Source: Pengzhenrongella sicca (GTDB lineage: Bacteria > Actinomycetota > Actinomycetes > Actinomycetales > Cellulomonadaceae). From it: a stretch of 64,000 bases of DNA. How positions within the stretch are numbered: position 1 is the first letter of the stretch; the number at the start of each line of letters is the position of its first letter. Both the position numbers and the translations under genes were made by a program. The notes below the pieces were generated by a model that saw only the letters and a program-made list of their open reading frames with translations, was not told the origin of the DNA and searched no databases. Shown piece after piece: positions 18,162 through 36,046 of this stretch. The stretch is from NCBI RefSeq assembly GCF_017569225.1, contig NZ_CP071868.1, positions 3,534,001 through 3,598,000 on the forward strand, written 5' to 3'.

Positions 18162-19025
18162 CTAGTTGCTGCCGCGAAGGATCGCGATCAGCCGCAGGAA
18201 CTCGAGGTACATCCACACGAGGGTGACGACGAGCCCGAAAGCGGCGGTCCAGGCGAACTTCGCCGGGACGCCCTGCTCGACCCCACGCTTGATCGAGTCG
18301 AAGTCGAGGATCAGCATCGCCGCGGCGAGGCCGACGGCGAAGAGGCCGACGATGACGCCCAGGGCGCCACTCCTCAGCGGGCCGAACGCGCCGTCGCCGC
18401 CGACGTTGAAGACCATCAGCAGCACGTTGACGAGCGAGAACACGAGGTACCCGACCATGGAGACGAGGAGCCAGCGCGTGAACTTCGGGGTGACGCGCAC
18501 CTTGCCCGAGCGGAACAGCACGAGGCAGGCGGCGAACGTCGCCATGGTGGCGAGCACGGCCTGCGTCACGAGGCCCGGCAGGTCGAAGGCCACCTCGAAG
18601 TACCACGAGATGCCCCCGAGGAAGACGCCCTCGGCCGCCGCGTAGGCCAGGATGAGGGCCGGGCTCGGGCTCTTCTTGAACGAGTTCACCATGCCGAGCA
18701 CGAAACCGACGAGCGCGCCGATGATCGCGACGCCCATCCGCGACTCCTCGGGCACGACGAACCAGGTCAGCGCCGCCATGACGACGACGATGGTGAGCAG
18801 CCCGCCGGTCTTCATGATGACGTCGTCGTAGGTCATCCGCCCGGTCTGGGCCGTGGTCGCCGAGGGCGACTGGTACATCTGGTTCAGCGCCGCCGCGTCG
18901 TACGGCGCCGCGGTGACCGCGCTGTCCTGCAGCACGGCTCCCTGCTGGCGCCCGCGCTGGGGCTGCTGCCGCGACTTCTTGGGATCGCGGAAGATCGCGT
19001 TGTTGTCGAAGACGGGGTTGCTCAT
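18162..19025 (-). CDS. Bax inhibitor-1/YccA family membrane protein
   Basis: A 287-residue protein with a polar, Gln-rich cytosolic N-terminus of about 75 residues followed by seven membrane segments. The actinobacterial form of the family is recognised by SNPVFDN at the start, MTYDDVIMKTGGLL before the first helix and the closing WMYLEFLRLIAILRG. TMBIM/BI-1 members conduct Ca2+ or protons in some systems, but the role of this actinobacterial clade is unknown. ATG 19025 has GGAGGAA upstream. It is divergent from the ABC transporter operon. Confidence 0.88.
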   Translation of the reverse strand: MSNPVFDNNAIFRDPKKSRQQPQRGRQQGAVLQDSAVTAAPYDAAALNQMYQSPSATTAQTGRMTYDDVIMKTGGLLTIVVVMAALTWFVVPEESRMGVAIIGALVGFVLGMVNSFKKSPSPALILAYAAAEGVFLGGISWYFEVAFDLPGLVTQAVLATMATFAACLVLFRSGKVRVTPKFTRWLLVSMVGYLVFSLVNVLLMVFNVGGDGAFGPLRSGALGVIVGLFAVGLAAAMLILDFDSIKRGVEQGVPAKFAWTAAFGLVVTLVWMYLEFLRLIAILRGSN

Positions 19026-19107
19026 CAGTTCCTCCTGGTCGCGCCGTCCCGCCCCCTGCGCAGGTGCGCAAGTCGGTGCGAGTTTGCGGCCGTTTTCCTT
19101 ACTCTAT

Positions 19108-19170
19108 GCAACGCGGCACCCGCCGTGGGCGTTCCCGGCGCAACGCGGCACCCGCCGTGGGCGTTCCCGG
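19108..19170. repeat. Two tandem copies of a 31-bp direct repeat
   Basis: Copies at 19108-19138 and 19140-19170 are identical (start GCAACGCGGCACCCGCCG), with a 32-bp period. They lie in the 271-bp divergent gap between the Bax inhibitor gene and the ABC transporter operon, where regulators of either could bind. Nothing else is recognised in the gap. Confidence 0.8.
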
Positions 19171-19296
19171 CCGTGGCCGTCCTCCCTGCGAGGTATGCGC
19201 CGACGCGGGGCACGTCAGCCTCGAGGGGGTGCCGCCCGGGGCGCGGCGCGCTCTAGCCTCGACGTGGAAGCACACGCCGAACGAAGGACGACAGCC

Positions 19297-20280
19297 ATGA
19301 TCGAGGCCCACGGCCTGACGAAGCGATACGGGCCGAAGACGGCGGTGGACGACGTCACGTTCACCGTCCACCCCGGCAAGGTCACCGGATTCCTCGGCCC
19401 GAACGGCGCCGGGAAGTCCACGACGATGCGCATGATCGTCGGCCTGGACCGGCCCACCCACGGGACGGTGACCGTCAACGGCCGCCCGTACGCGCAGCAC
19501 CGGTCGCCGCTGCACGAGGTCGGCGCCCTGCTCGACGCGAAGGCGGTCCACACCGGCCGCAGCGCCTACAACCACCTGCTCGCGATGGCCGCGACCCACG
19601 GCATCGGCAAGGCCCGCGTGCGCGAGGTCATCGAGATGACCGGGCTCGACACCGTCGCCAAGAAGCGCGTCGGTGGCTTCTCGCTCGGCATGGGGCAGCG
19701 CCTCGGCATCGCCTCGGCCCTGCTCGGCGACCCGCGCACCCTCATCCTCGACGAGCCGGTCAACGGCCTCGACCCTGAGGGCGTCGTCTGGGTGCGCAAC
19801 CTCGTGCGCTACCTCGCCGGCGAGGGACGCACCGTCTTCCTGTCCTCCCACCTCATGAGCGAGATGGCGCTGACGGCGGACCACATCATCGTCGTCGGCC
19901 GCGGCCGGATCCTCGCGGATGCCCCCGTCGCCGACATCGTCGGCCGCGCGGCGGGCACGACCGTGCGCGTGCGCAGCCCGCACGCGACCCGGCTCGTCGA
20001 GCTCATGGCGGGCCCTGGCATCACGGTCACCTCGACCGCACCCGAGTCGTTCGAGATCACCGGCAGCACCGCCGAGGCGATCGGCGAGGCCGCCGCCGGC
20101 GCCCAGCTCGTGCTGCACGAGCTGACGCCGGTCAAGGGCTCGCTCGAGGACGCGTACATGGCGCTCACGCAGGACTCGGTCGAGTACCACTCGACCGACG
20201 CGGGGCTGCACCCCGACCACCTCAGCGACCACTCCGGTGCGCACGCCGCACCGAGCAGCACGGAAGGCGCACACCGATGA
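19297..20280 (+). CDS. ABC transporter ATP-binding protein (BcrA-like exporter)
   Basis: A 327-residue ATPase: Walker A GPNGAGKST (about residue 37), signature GFSLGMGQRLG, Walker B LILDEP with VNGLDPEGV, and switch His in SSHLMSEM. The pattern with AKAVHTGRSAYNHL is typical of BcrA/DrrA-type exporters often tied to antibiotic or peptide resistance. It has a His/Ser-rich tail after residue 300. ATG 19297 has GAAGGA upstream. The stop overlaps the permease ATG (ATGA). A linked two-component system follows, as in bacitracin-type resistance modules, though that link is inferred. Confidence 0.9.
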   Translation: MIEAHGLTKRYGPKTAVDDVTFTVHPGKVTGFLGPNGAGKSTTMRMIVGLDRPTHGTVTVNGRPYAQHRSPLHEVGALLDAKAVHTGRSAYNHLLAMAATHGIGKARVREVIEMTGLDTVAKKRVGGFSLGMGQRLGIASALLGDPRTLILDEPVNGLDPEGVVWVRNLVRYLAGEGRTVFLSSHLMSEMALTADHIIVVGRGRILADAPVADIVGRAAGTTVRVRSPHATRLVELMAGPGITVTSTAPESFEITGSTAEAIGEAAAGAQLVLHELTPVKGSLEDAYMALTQDSVEYHSTDAGLHPDHLSDHSGAHAAPSSTEGAHR

Positions 20281-21143
20281 GCATCGACACCCGCACGGCC
20301 GCCGCGCCGTCCTCGACGACGGGCGACTCGCGCGTCCACCTCAGCTTCGCGCGCGTGGTGCGCTCCGAGTGGATCAAGTTCCGCACCCTGCGCTCGACGG
20401 TCTGGACCCTCGGGACCACGATCGTGCTCATGGTGGGCATCTCGCTCCTGATCGCGTGGGGCGTGACTAGCGCCACCAGCCAGGGCGGCGGCTCCGAGGA
20501 CTTCGGGGGGATCGTCGGCGCCAACGTCGTGACCGGCGGCTACTACTTCGGCCAGCTGACGGTCGCCGTGCTCGGCGTCCTGGTGATCAGCGGCGAGTAC
20601 GGCACCGGCATGATTCGCTCCACCCTCGCGGCGGTGCCGACCCGGTTGCCGGCCCTGTGGGCCAAGGCGCTCGTGCTCGCGGTCACCTCCTTCGTGGTCG
20701 CGATCGTCGCGATCGCGCTCTCCATCCTGGCGACCCGTGCGATGCTCGGCCCGGTCGACCTCGCGGTCGACCTCGGCGACCCGGAGACCGCCCGGATCCT
20801 GTTCGGCACGGCCCTGTACCTGGCCGCGATCTCGCTGCTCGCGTTCGCGTTCGGCGCTTTGCTGCGGCACTCCGCGGCGGCGCTGGCCGCCGTGCTCGGC
20901 CTGCTGCTCGTGCTCGAGAACGTCTTCCTGCTCATCCCGCTGGACTTCTTCCGCGAGGTCAGCCCGTTCCTGCCGTCCACGGCCGGCAGCCAGCTGATGA
21001 TGCCCCAGGCGCAGATCGATCTGATGGCCACCACGGCCACCGGGACGGTCCTGAGCCCGTGGGAGGGCTTCGCCGTCCTGGTGGCCTGGGTCGTCGTGCT
21101 GCTCGGCACCGCAGCCGTCCTGCTTCGCCGGCGGGACGCCTGA
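20277..21143 (+). CDS. ABC transporter permease
   Basis: A 288-residue membrane subunit with six hydrophobic segments. It opens with a Ser/Thr-rich N-terminus and the typical VVRSEWIKFRTLRSTVWTLG before the first helix; GEYGTGMIRSTLAAVPTR after the second is a hallmark of ABC-2-type permeases partnered with BcrA-like ATPases. It is translationally coupled to the ATPase. A very strong hairpin follows 13 bases after the stop. Confidence 0.87.
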   Translation: MSIDTRTAAAPSSTTGDSRVHLSFARVVRSEWIKFRTLRSTVWTLGTTIVLMVGISLLIAWGVTSATSQGGGSEDFGGIVGANVVTGGYYFGQLTVAVLGVLVISGEYGTGMIRSTLAAVPTRLPALWAKALVLAVTSFVVAIVAIALSILATRAMLGPVDLAVDLGDPETARILFGTALYLAAISLLAFAFGALLRHSAAALAAVLGLLLVLENVFLLIPLDFFREVSPFLPSTAGSQLMMPQAQIDLMATTATGTVLSPWEGFAVLVAWVVVLLGTAAVLLRRRDA

Positions 21144-21156
21144 TCCTGCACCGCAC

Positions 21157-21190
21157 CGCGACGGCCGGCGCACCCGCGCCGGCCGTCGCG
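21157..21190 (+). terminator. 15-bp perfect hairpin after the ABC permease gene
   Basis: CGCGACGGCCGGCGC (21157-21171), loop ACCC, then the exact complement (21176-21190). It lies between the permease stop and the histidine kinase start. Its strength suggests a terminator or partial attenuator separating the transporter from the two-component genes. No T-run follows. Confidence 0.55.
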
Positions 21191-21211
21191 AACGTGGCGG
21201 CGGTCGGCTCC

Positions 21212-22522
21212 ATGAAGGCCGCCTCGCCCGCCCCGACCGAGCCCGGCCCGTTGTTCACCGAACTCAACACCCGCCGGCTCGGGCCGATCCGGCGATACTT
21301 CCTGCGCCACCCCGTCACGACCGACGTCGTCGTCGCCGCGTGCTTCGCCGTCCCGGGGGCTCTCCTGGCGGCCGCCACCAGCGACCGGCCGCGGCTCCCG
21401 CTGTTCGCGCTCGTGCTGGCCGGCTTCGTGGTGCTGCTCTGGCGGCGCCGGCAGCCGGTGTGGACCGCGGCGGCGATCGGCGCCTTGGGCGTGGTCTCGC
21501 TCGCGACCACCGGGACCATCGGCACCTTCGACACGGCGGTCGGGCTGGTGATCTACGCGGTCGCGGCCGCGCGCCGGCCCCGGACCGCGTGGCTCGCGCT
21601 CATCGCGCTGTGCCTGGCCGTCAGCGGCGCCTTCTGGCTGTGGGACGAGCCCATGAACGTCGCGGTGCTCGGCATCACGACGGACGCCTCGGAGTCGGCG
21701 ACCGAGACCCGCGTCTCGGCGATCACCGCGATCCTCATCTTCGCGCTCGCCGCGATGGCCATCGGCTCGAGCGTGCGCAACCGCCGCGAGCACGTGTCCG
21801 CCCTGATCGACCGGGCGAATCGCCTCGCCGTCGAGCGGGACCACGAGATCCAGCTCGCGAGCGCCGCGGAGCGCGCCCGGATCGCGCGTGAGATGCACGA
21901 CGTCGTCGCGCACAGCCTGTCCGTGATGATCGCCCTAGCAGACGGCGCGGGGGTCGCCTTGAACCGCTCGCCCGACCGGGCGCGGGAGGCCATCGCCGAG
22001 GTCTCGGAGACGGGCCGATCCGCGCTCGCCGACATGCGGCGCGTGCTGGGCGCGCTGCGTGACCCGCAGGCTCCGCTCGGGCCCCAGCCGGGCGCGGGCG
22101 ATCTCGCGGGGCTCGTCGAGGGCTTCCGTAGCGCGGGCCTGCCGGTGCGGACGACGGTGACGGGCACCCCGGTGCCCACCGACGCCGGGATCCAGCTCGC
22201 GGTGTACCGGATCGTGCAGGAGTCGTTAACGAACGTGCTCCGCCACGCCGTGGGGGCCGGCCAGGTCGACGTCCTCCTCGCGACCGCCGACGGCTGGATC
22301 GAGATCACCGTGACCGACGACGGTGGCGCGGGCATCAGCGCTGCCGCCCGCGCGCCGTCGGTACTCGGAGAGCGGCCCGCGACCGGCGCAGGCTCCGGCG
22401 GGCGGGGGATCATCGGGATGCGCGAGCGCGCCGCCGTCTACGGTGGCGTCGTCGACGCCGGCCCCTACCGGGCCGGCTGGCGCACCCGGGCCCGGCTGGC
22501 TTGGACCGAGGAGGATCGATGA
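21212..22522 (+). CDS. Sensor histidine kinase, NarL/LiaS-type (HisKA_3)
   Basis: A 436-residue membrane kinase. Residues about 30-185 hold several transmembrane segments without a large sensor domain. The phosphoacceptor motif is ARIAREMHDVVAHSLSVM (His about residue 229); the ATP-binding part has QESLTNVLRHA, DDGGAGI and GRGIIGMRERA. The ATG at 21212 is chosen because it starts MKAASPAPTEP, but its ribosome binding site is poor; GTG 21194 in frame is an alternative. The stop overlaps the response regulator start (ATGA). Confidence 0.88.
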   Translation: MKAASPAPTEPGPLFTELNTRRLGPIRRYFLRHPVTTDVVVAACFAVPGALLAAATSDRPRLPLFALVLAGFVVLLWRRRQPVWTAAAIGALGVVSLATTGTIGTFDTAVGLVIYAVAAARRPRTAWLALIALCLAVSGAFWLWDEPMNVAVLGITTDASESATETRVSAITAILIFALAAMAIGSSVRNRREHVSALIDRANRLAVERDHEIQLASAAERARIAREMHDVVAHSLSVMIALADGAGVALNRSPDRAREAIAEVSETGRSALADMRRVLGALRDPQAPLGPQPGAGDLAGLVEGFRSAGLPVRTTVTGTPVPTDAGIQLAVYRIVQESLTNVLRHAVGAGQVDVLLATADGWIEITVTDDGGAGISAAARAPSVLGERPATGAGSGGRGIIGMRERAAVYGGVVDAGPYRAGWRTRARLAWTEEDR

Positions 22523-34537: not shown

Positions 34538-34614
34538 TGGTGCCCCCGACGGGAATCGAACCCGCGCTGGACCGGGTTTAAGCCGGTTGCCTCTGCCGAT
34601 TGGGCTACGGGGGC
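34538..34614 (-). tRNA. tRNA with UAA anticodon, class I body (leucine by anticodon, identity uncertain)
   Basis: A 77-base cloverleaf with encoded 3' CCA. Acceptor GCCCCCG pairs with CGGGGGC; the D arm has a 3-bp stem and the usual GG; the anticodon stem ACCGG/CCGGT closes the loop CTTAAAC, giving anticodon TAA; the T loop is TTCGATT. The discriminator is A. The variable region is only 5 bases (CCAGC). Bacterial tRNA-Leu is normally class II with a long variable arm, so this molecule combines a leucine anticodon with a class I body. The gene lies 22 bases after the NDH-2 stop and may be co-transcribed. Confidence 0.88.
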
Positions 34615-34636: not shown

Positions 34637-36046
34637 CTAGTCGGTGCGGGCATCCCGCTCGACGGGCGGCAGCGGCAGCGGCAACGAGGCGGCGCGGAAC
34701 TCCGCGCGCGGGTCGTGCAGGGAGCCGAGCGCGACGACCTCGCGGCGGAAGATGAGCGAACTGGTCCAGTCGGCCATGATGCGCACCTTGCGGTTGAGCG
34801 TCGGCATGGCGAAGACGTGGTAGGTCCGGTGCAGCACCCACGCGGGGAACCCGCGCACCTTGACCCGGCCGAACATCTGCGCGACGCCCTTGTACATGCC
34901 CAGCGACGCCACGGCTCCGACGTTCTTGTGCTTGTACTCGGTGGGCTCCGCGCTGCGCAGGATGCGCGCGAGGTTGTCGCCGAGGTGGTTGCCCTCGCGC
35001 AGGGCGTGCTGGGCGTTCGGCGGGCAGAACTGGCCGGGGTTGTACAGGTCGGGCACGGCCGCGCAGTCCCCGGCGGCCCACGCGTCGGGCACCACGGTCC
35101 CGTCCTCGGCGGCGACCTGCAGCGTCGGCAGGCAGGTGACCCGGCCGAGCTTGTCGAGCGGCAGGTCCGAGCGCGTGAGCACTGGGTTCGGCCGCACCCC
35201 CGCGGTCCACACGATCGTCTCGGCGTCGAACTCCACGGCGTTGGAGAGCACGACGTGCCCGTCGATGCAGGAGGTCAGGAACGTGGACAGGTGGATCTCG
35301 ATGTTGCGCTTGCGCAGCTGCTCGAGCGTGTACCCGCCGAGCTCCTCGTTCACCTCCGGCAGGATCCGCCGCGAGCCCTCCACGAGCACGAAGCGGAGCT
35401 CGCCGACGTCCACGGAGGCGTAGTACTTGGCGGCGTCGCGGGCCATGTCCTCGACCTCGGCCAGCGCCTCGATCCCCGCGAACCCTCCGCCGACGAACAC
35501 GAAGGTCAGCATCTTGCGGCGGAGCTCGGGGTCCCAGGTCGACGAGGCGAGGTCGATCCGGTTGAGCACGTGGTTGCGCAGCGCGATGGCCTCTTCGACG
35601 TTCTTGAACCCGATGCCTACGTCCGCGAGGCCGGGGATCGGCAGCGTCCGGGCGACGGACCCGAGCCCGACGATGAGGTGGTCGTAGGTGACCTCGTACG
35701 GCGCACCCTCCTGCGGGGTGATCTCGACCTTGCGGTCGGCGTGCCGGATCGCCGAGACCTTCCCGTAGAGCACGTCGATGTTCTTCAGCGCGCGGCGGTG
35801 CGGCGCGACAACGTTCCGGGGATCGATCGAACCCGCCGCCGCCTCGGGCAGGAACGGGTAGTAGGTCATGTACGGCCGCGGGTCGACGACGACGATCGCC
35901 GCGTCCTGCTTGCCGAGCCGCTTGCGCAGGCGGCGCGCGGAGTACAGGCCGACCGTGCCGCCGCCGAGGATGAGCACGCGCGGCACCTTGCGGGAGCGCG
36001 GGGTCCCGGTGGGCGGGGCGGGCGAGGTCTGGGCCGTGGTGTCCAT
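34637..36046 (-). CDS. ndh: Type II NADH dehydrogenase (NDH-2)
   Basis: A 469-residue FAD enzyme on the inner face of the membrane, passing electrons from NADH to menaquinone without pumping protons. The first Rossmann motif is VLILGGGTVGLYSARRL (FAD); the second is FVFVGGGFAGIEALAEVED (NADH). The third FAD contact is AWAAGDCAAVPD and the quinone-site-like stretch is CPPNAQHALREGNHLGDN. The C-terminal about 60 residues would form the membrane-binding helices. There is no Shine-Dalgarno before ATG 36046; a TACCGT hexamer ends 6 bases upstream, consistent with a leaderless mRNA. Confidence 0.9.
   Translation of the reverse strand: MDTTAQTSPAPPTGTPRSRKVPRVLILGGGTVGLYSARRLRKRLGKQDAAIVVVDPRPYMTYYPFLPEAAAGSIDPRNVVAPHRRALKNIDVLYGKVSAIRHADRKVEITPQEGAPYEVTYDHLIVGLGSVARTLPIPGLADVGIGFKNVEEAIALRNHVLNRIDLASSTWDPELRRKMLTFVFVGGGFAGIEALAEVEDMARDAAKYYASVDVGELRFVLVEGSRRILPEVNEELGGYTLEQLRKRNIEIHLSTFLTSCIDGHVVLSNAVEFDAETIVWTAGVRPNPVLTRSDLPLDKLGRVTCLPTLQVAAEDGTVVPDAWAAGDCAAVPDLYNPGQFCPPNAQHALREGNHLGDNLARILRSAEPTEYKHKNVGAVASLGMYKGVAQMFGRVKVRGFPAWVLHRTYHVFAMPTLNRKVRIMADWTSSLIFRREVVALGSLHDPRAEFRAASLPLPLPPVERDARTD

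Follow-up and report, generated by a model that had tools for sequence, protein, structure and literature searches.

Streptomyces bldA and E. coli Leu(UAA) are examples of bacterial class II tRNA-Leu(UAA). The two tRNA classes are told apart by the variable region, which is a loop of 4–5 bases in class I and has at least 10 bases in class II (accessible part of PMC7609411), and a 2023 review, in the sections of it that are open, presents tRNA-Leu as long-armed everywhere but in animal mitochondria. According to excerpts of PMC9976931, leucine identity in E. coli is set by A73, A15-U48, G18G19, A20a and contacts between the D and T loops, with A73 as the main determinant, and the long arm is not needed; SerRS, by the same excerpts and those of PMC7609411, depends on the long arm of tRNA-Ser. 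Two reports from Mycobacterium come near to the case described here. A tRNA-Leu(TAG) with a short variable loop occurs as a cluster copy beside the normal isoacceptor (PMC6582537, in part), and a 2024 paper on Mycobacterium tuberculosis states that "especially" Leu-2, 3 and 5 have long variable loops, which hints at an exception that its available text does not discuss (PMC11541572). Searches of an open-access library gave no explicit description of a class I bacterial tRNA-Leu(UUR); curators of tRNA databases may well be aware of class I leucine tRNAs already.

The gene analysed here lies in a 64-kb stretch of the Pengzhenrongella sicca genome (hereafter the window). Its product would share with class II tRNA-Leu(UAA) the anticodon, A73 and the leucine D-arm layout, and in three relatives the class II gene also lies downstream of ndh; it differs in having no long arm, in its acceptor stem, in C12-G23 and C13.A22 of the D arm and, for 134 of 140 class I sequences, in U8-A9 where class II tRNA-Leu(UAA) has U8-G9. 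Animal mitochondrial tRNA-Leu(UUR) is likewise without the long arm, and its LeuRS uses A73 and A14 (PMC9976931, excerpts), but it is an organelle tRNA with a weak anticodon arm whereas the window tRNA is bacterial and well paired. The Mycobacterium tRNA-Leu(TAG) resembles it in combining a leucine anticodon with a short variable loop in an actinobacterium, yet has another anticodon and an isoacceptor beside it, while the window tRNA is the sole UUA reader found.

A class I tRNA-Leu(UAA) gene in the window

ARAGORN placed a tRNA-Leu(taa) exactly at 34538-34614 on the minus strand, the only tRNA of the window, and cmscan against Rfam RF00005 aligned it over the full model (positions 1-71) with 58.4 bits, against a gathering score of 29 (E 4.9e-10). 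The features of the locus are as follows.

34538..34614, minus strand: class I tRNA-Leu(UAA) gene with encoded CCA (ARAGORN; RF00005, 58.4 bits)
34541..34541, minus strand: discriminator A73 (parse; A73 in 140/140 class I strings)
34566..34570, minus strand: variable loop CCAGC, 5 bases, its final base C48 at 34566 (parse)
34578..34580, minus strand: anticodon UAA (34-36) within the loop CUUAAAC (ARAGORN, parse)
34589..34605, minus strand: leucine-type D arm with 3-bp stem GCC/GGC, A14, A15, G18G19, A20a and C13.A22 (parse)
34637..36046, minus strand: ndh-like pyridine nucleotide-disulphide oxidoreductase gene, directly upstream of the tRNA (Pfam PF07992)

The parse gives an acceptor stem GCCCCCG/CGGGGGC, a D stem GCC/GGC, an anticodon stem ACCGG/CCGGU with the loop CUUAAAC, the variable loop CCAGC and a T arm GCGGG/CCCGU, followed by A73. 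The lone non-standard pair in the RF00005 alignment is the outer D-stem pair 13.22, and the variable loop is short in it too. With 5 bases this loop lies within the class I range and below that of class II, and a class II arm was placed by neither ARAGORN nor the RF00005 cmscan. The original prediction of a complete cloverleaf with a UAA anticodon, an encoded CCA and a 5-base variable region is thus confirmed. Nor does the gene look degenerate: the stems are intact in the RF00005 alignment, and the type is kept across the order. A scan for promoter- and terminator-like sequences near the gene was uninformative (0 matches), and the 4.2 kb around it had no match among plasmids.

UUR and CUN decoding in Pengzhenrongella sicca

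The genome is a single contig of 4,395,128 bases, of which the window covers 3,534,001-3,598,000. RF00005 gave 45 matches over the whole contig, and ARAGORN, run on the stretches around these matches, called 46 tRNAs, including a 98-base 'Arg(tcg)' that was judged spurious. Five leucine tRNAs were called: CAG (84 bases), GAG (84) and UAG (83) are class II, while CAA (75) and UAA (77) are class I, the CAA gene lying at C1:2049459 on the minus strand. Neither the RF00005 search of the contig nor ARAGORN at the matched places turned up a class II UUR tRNA in this genome, and a pattern written for both classes returned just the two class I UUR genes. With class I bodies on both UUR tRNAs and class II bodies on the three CUN tRNAs, P. 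sicca appears to use class I leucine tRNAs for decoding UUR and class II ones for CUN. GGCAGA and the 3-bp D-stem layout of the window tRNA also occur in the class II Leu(CAG) and Leu(GAG) of the same genome. A single atypical tRNA had been predicted, on the assumption that leucine tRNAs of bacteria belong to class II. The class I body of the UAA tRNA stands, the account of it as a lone case was incomplete as the CAA isoacceptor is class I too, no coexisting class II tRNA-Leu(UAA) turned up with RF00005, ARAGORN or the both-class pattern, and the assumption proved too broad. Many other actinobacteria likewise read UUA and UUG with class I leucine tRNAs.

Distribution of class I tRNA-Leu(UUR)

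A class I pattern with a YAA anticodon, one mismatch allowed, matched 58 of the 59 genomes of the genus, family and order (own genome included), or 45 of 46 by genus; in the 59th (G052) the loop of the UAA tRNA is 6 bases long. In the class Actinomycetes the both-class pattern matched 104 of 148 genomes and left 44 without a match, which is not the same as absence of the gene because the survey patterns require a leucine-like D loop. Unpaired anticodon stems led us to drop two rows, one from G082 and one from G191; G191 left the count in this way, and 103 scorable genomes remained. At least one class I UAA or CAA tRNA is present in 84 of these 103. For UAA, 63 genomes have the class I form and 15 a longer one (8 bases in one case); for CAA the split is 31 class I to 28 class II. 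Apart from the 8-base case the variable loops fall at 5–6 bases (class I) and 13–17 bases. None of the 103 carries both classes of one anticodon.

A further set of 50 genomes had been picked for a class I hit and so is not a representative sample, and there the combinations vary. UAA and CAA are both class I in Cellulomonas, Cellulosimicrobium, Corynebacterium, Gordonia, Dietzia and Amycolatopsis; a class I UAA goes with a class II CAA in Microbacterium, Brachybacterium, Nocardia and Aeromicrobium, and a class II UAA with a class I CAA in Micromonospora. Class I CAA also occurs in three Streptomyces and one Kitasatospora, and CAA is present in both classes in Saccharothrix, Kibdelosporangium, a Chloroflexaceae MAG and an Acidobacteria MAG. 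Among the matches listed in a scan of GTDB genomes, actinobacterial titles account for 108 of 118 loci; the other 10 of 118 are MAGs titled as other phyla or no phylum, where contamination is possible. A phylum-level search matched 92 of 119 genomes, and among the matches listed those outside the class Actinomycetes are mostly class II, with some class I CAA.

Three individual loci may be mentioned. A contig of the Chloroflexaceae MAG (L118:56-1674) has class I UAA and CAA alongside class II GAG and CAG leucine tRNAs, class I Leu(CAA) adjoins a class I Leu(CAG) in an Acidobacteria gp7 MAG (L147:6053-6208), and Streptomyces sp. SAJ15 has a UAA tRNA-like match with a 6-base loop (G237:C4:137998-138040), perhaps an extra UUA reader.

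The two forms occur at the same chromosomal places

The window tRNA gene begins 22 bases after the ndh-like gene. We examined 113 class I UAA loci, of which 96 include at least 1400 bases upstream, and in 31 of the 113 an ndh-like gene is the immediate upstream neighbour on the same strand, with its alignment ending at most 600 bases away; it is elsewhere in the locus in 11 more. These 31 include loci from Streptosporangium, Kibdelosporangium, Rothia and Sinomonas. Of nine class II UAA loci fetched, three (L245, L246, L252) have the ndh-like gene directly upstream on the same strand and one (L244) has it 3 kb upstream, the remaining five being without it. For CAA, 8 of 11 loci are divergent from the same response-regulator-like gene, and these comprise two class I genes (L253, the window genome; L262, Amycolatopsis) and six class II genes (L254, L255, L256, L257, L258, L263). 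The other three lie elsewhere, L259 (class II) and L261 (class I) in tRNA clusters and L260 (class I) beside polA. For both isoacceptors, then, class I and class II genes take the same position at some loci but not at all. Across Actinomycetota each UUR isoacceptor exists in two forms, class I or class II, and their sharing of chromosomal places in different lineages suggests that in some of these one form was exchanged for the other at its locus; the direction and mode of replacement we infer. Related genomes with both forms at the same locus would also be a natural experiment on what LeuRS and SerRS require of their tRNAs.

Class I leucine tRNAs in phages

Twenty-four phage records are similar to the window tRNA, and five were examined. 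Class I Leu(UAA) is found in Enterococcus phage PEf771 (L239:1494-1568) and cyanophage P-RSM6 (L240:1494-1569), whose hosts are outside Actinobacteria, class I Leu(UAG) in Mycobacterium phage Bromden (L241:1497-1571) and Streptomyces phage Manuel (L242:1496-1572), and class I Leu(CAA) in Corynebacterium phage StAB. The record of phage PEf771 has no feature annotated at its class I Leu(UAA). The class I pattern, run over viral contigs, matched at least 120 loci, and ARAGORN called class I Leu(YAA) in 118 of those listed. The phage tRNAs have the same body signature as the window tRNA and differ from it in being viral copies, some of them with UAG, GAG or CAG anticodons. Among mycobacteriophages, some use tRNA-Leu-CAA as their integration site and one brings a tRNA-Leu-CAA of its own (accessible part of PMC10865867). 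A role of phages in replacing class II genes is possible. A stronger version, which we hold only tentatively and think on balance improbable, is that class I tRNA-Leu(UUR) is a mobile form that circulates in phage tRNA clusters and took over the loci of bacterial class II genes, perhaps by means of integrases whose recombination within tRNA genes exchanges the 3' half together with its variable loop. Were it true, the long arm of tRNA-Leu would be dispensable and exchangeable in living bacteria, lost and possibly regained repeatedly across Actinomycetota.

Leucine identity determinants

We surveyed 140 distinct class I Leu(YAA) strings, representing 150 copies. A73, A14 and C12-G23 are each present in 140/140 and none of them was imposed by the patterns; pair 11-24 covaries (C-G 130, U-A 10), and 15-48 is A-U in 133, G-C in 5 and A-C in 2. 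The window tRNA, one of the two A15.C48 strings, has A14, G18G19 and A20a and departs from the E. coli determinant A15-U48 in that U48 is replaced by C48. Because G18G19, position 20a and the anticodon loop were built into the search patterns, they count as evidence in the window tRNA only. LeuRS would have no need of the long arm: the E. coli enzyme relies on A73, the D-loop/T-loop elbow, the 15-48 pair and A20a, and these elements are mostly kept here. As SerRS needs the long arm, its loss should not invite charging with serine. No second full-length LeuRS was seen among the matches listed in 30 genomes (our own and 29 from named loci), 28 of which have a LeuRS match above the family cut-off.

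UUA and UUG align with leucine

In the actinobacterium IMCC26103, RF00005 detects 38 tRNAs. Three of them are UUR leucine tRNAs, two with a UAA and one with a CAA anticodon; all three are class I, and the 38 include no class II UUR tRNA. When its genes were aligned with those of the window genome (36 non-overlapping gene pairs), leucine stood opposite UUA at 69/83 and UUG at 106/126 positions, compared with 67–85% for the four CUN codons, and no other residue exceeded 5 at UUA or UUG. The same comparison with Corynebacterium (38 pairs) gave 43/64 for UUA, 89/114 for UUG and 60–69% for CUN, with no other residue above 7; Corynebacterium UUG met leucine of the window genome at 51/71. UUG codons of the window genome aligned with leucine at 13/19 and 14/19 against two relatives, and there were 0 aligned UUA codons, which are very rare. 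In earlier versions of the test, a comparison with E. coli proteins was weaker, with leucine at 10/23 UUA codons, a small sample, and all ORFs of at least 45% identity gave Phe at 14/66 UUG codons of the window genome, which we ascribe to antisense ORFs. The Phe count dropped to 1/19 once non-overlapping gene pairs were used. UUR codons thus align with leucine as CUN codons do, so reassignment is not supported, and UUA and UUG appear to mean leucine as far as these codon comparisons reach.

The predicted rarity of UUA held: it occurs 7 times among 41,015 codons, counted over 113 crude ORFs of the window and a further 80 kb. Two TTA codons fall in crude ORFs of the window, one of them in a plausible gene, a histidine kinase ORF (20657-22522); the other (18853-20280) precedes a likelier start.

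Function and origin of the class I body

We consider it highly probable, judging from sequence comparisons, that 34538-34614 is a functional housekeeping class I tRNA-Leu(UAA) that LeuRS would charge and that would read UUA as leucine. The ordinary LeuRS would supply the leucine, the tRNA would read UUA and probably, by wobble, UUG, and tRNA-Leu(CAA) is built on the same kind of class I body; charging by LeuRS and expression we infer. Of the possibilities first proposed, acceptance of the body by LeuRS is well supported by the kept leucine determinants, the conservation of the type, the lack of a second full-length LeuRS among the matches listed in 30 genomes and the alignment of UUR codons with leucine, and a switch of synthetase or reassignment of UUA is not. 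Charging by another enzyme such as PheRS, which would make UUA and UUG ambiguous or reassigned, draws on the class I body, on the A35-A36 that tRNA-Phe shares with Leu(UAA) and on the fact that after Leu(CAA) the nearest tRNA of the own genome is Arg(UCU), at 72.5%; we regard it as very improbable, given the leucine found at UUA (69/83) and UUG (106/126) in IMCC26103, whose UUR tRNAs are class I only, and the invariant A73 and A14 in 140 strings. There is equally little room for a degenerate or accessory class I copy beside a class II tRNA-Leu(UAA) that does the work. A15.C48, where the window copy departs from most of the family, would fit such a copy, but the genome has no class II UUR tRNA by our searches, the stems are intact, the type is conserved across the order and the ndh-like neighbour recurs. 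A bldA-like regulatory role, in which the tRNA besides decoding would limit translation of the rare genes with UUA, is somewhat less remote though still unlikely. The scarcity of UUA (7/41,015) and the histidine kinase ORF as the window's plausible UUA gene would suit it, but scarcity is expected from high GC, and the class I body is not tied to it, as the housekeeping genes of IMCC26103 use UUA (83 aligned in 36 pairs against 0 in the window genome). Moreover Streptomyces bldA is class II, so a short loop would not be the regulatory feature. A short loop under a leucine anticodon is, by itself, no sign of a pseudogene or of a changed code.

As to origin, the class I form may stem not from loss of the arm by the class II gene but from recruitment, in which a class I tRNA such as one resembling Arg(UCU) acquired the D arm and anticodon of a leucine tRNA and ousted the class II gene; we give this recruitment slightly less than an even chance. 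Over 60 columns that leave out the anticodon and variable loop, class I Leu is nearer to Arg(UCU) (0.738) than to class II UUR Leu (0.651), and in a tree of these 60 columns and 129 sequences 15 of 16 class II Leu join one Gly at support 0.966, apart from class I Leu. The comparison uses a single Arg(UCU) sequence, however, the best class I Leu group holds 20 other tRNAs at support 0.0, and the likeness may reflect convergence on class I tertiary contacts; class I genes at class II chromosomal places, for their part, suit a change in place.

LeuRS forms and position 38

Actinobacterial LeuRS comes in two forms (leuS loci L192-L221), a long one, whose match is interrupted near model position 142, and a short one that skips model positions of about 570-603. 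All 11 class I CAA genomes with a full-length LeuRS in a first set have the long form; a link between LeuRS architecture and class I CAA was rejected on a second set of 24, which gave 17 short, 6 long and 1 in fragments. In the anticodon loop, the window tRNA has C38 (34576), as do 43 of the 140 class I strings, and this base breaks the A36A37A38 motif, which TrmL uses (PMC9976931, excerpts).
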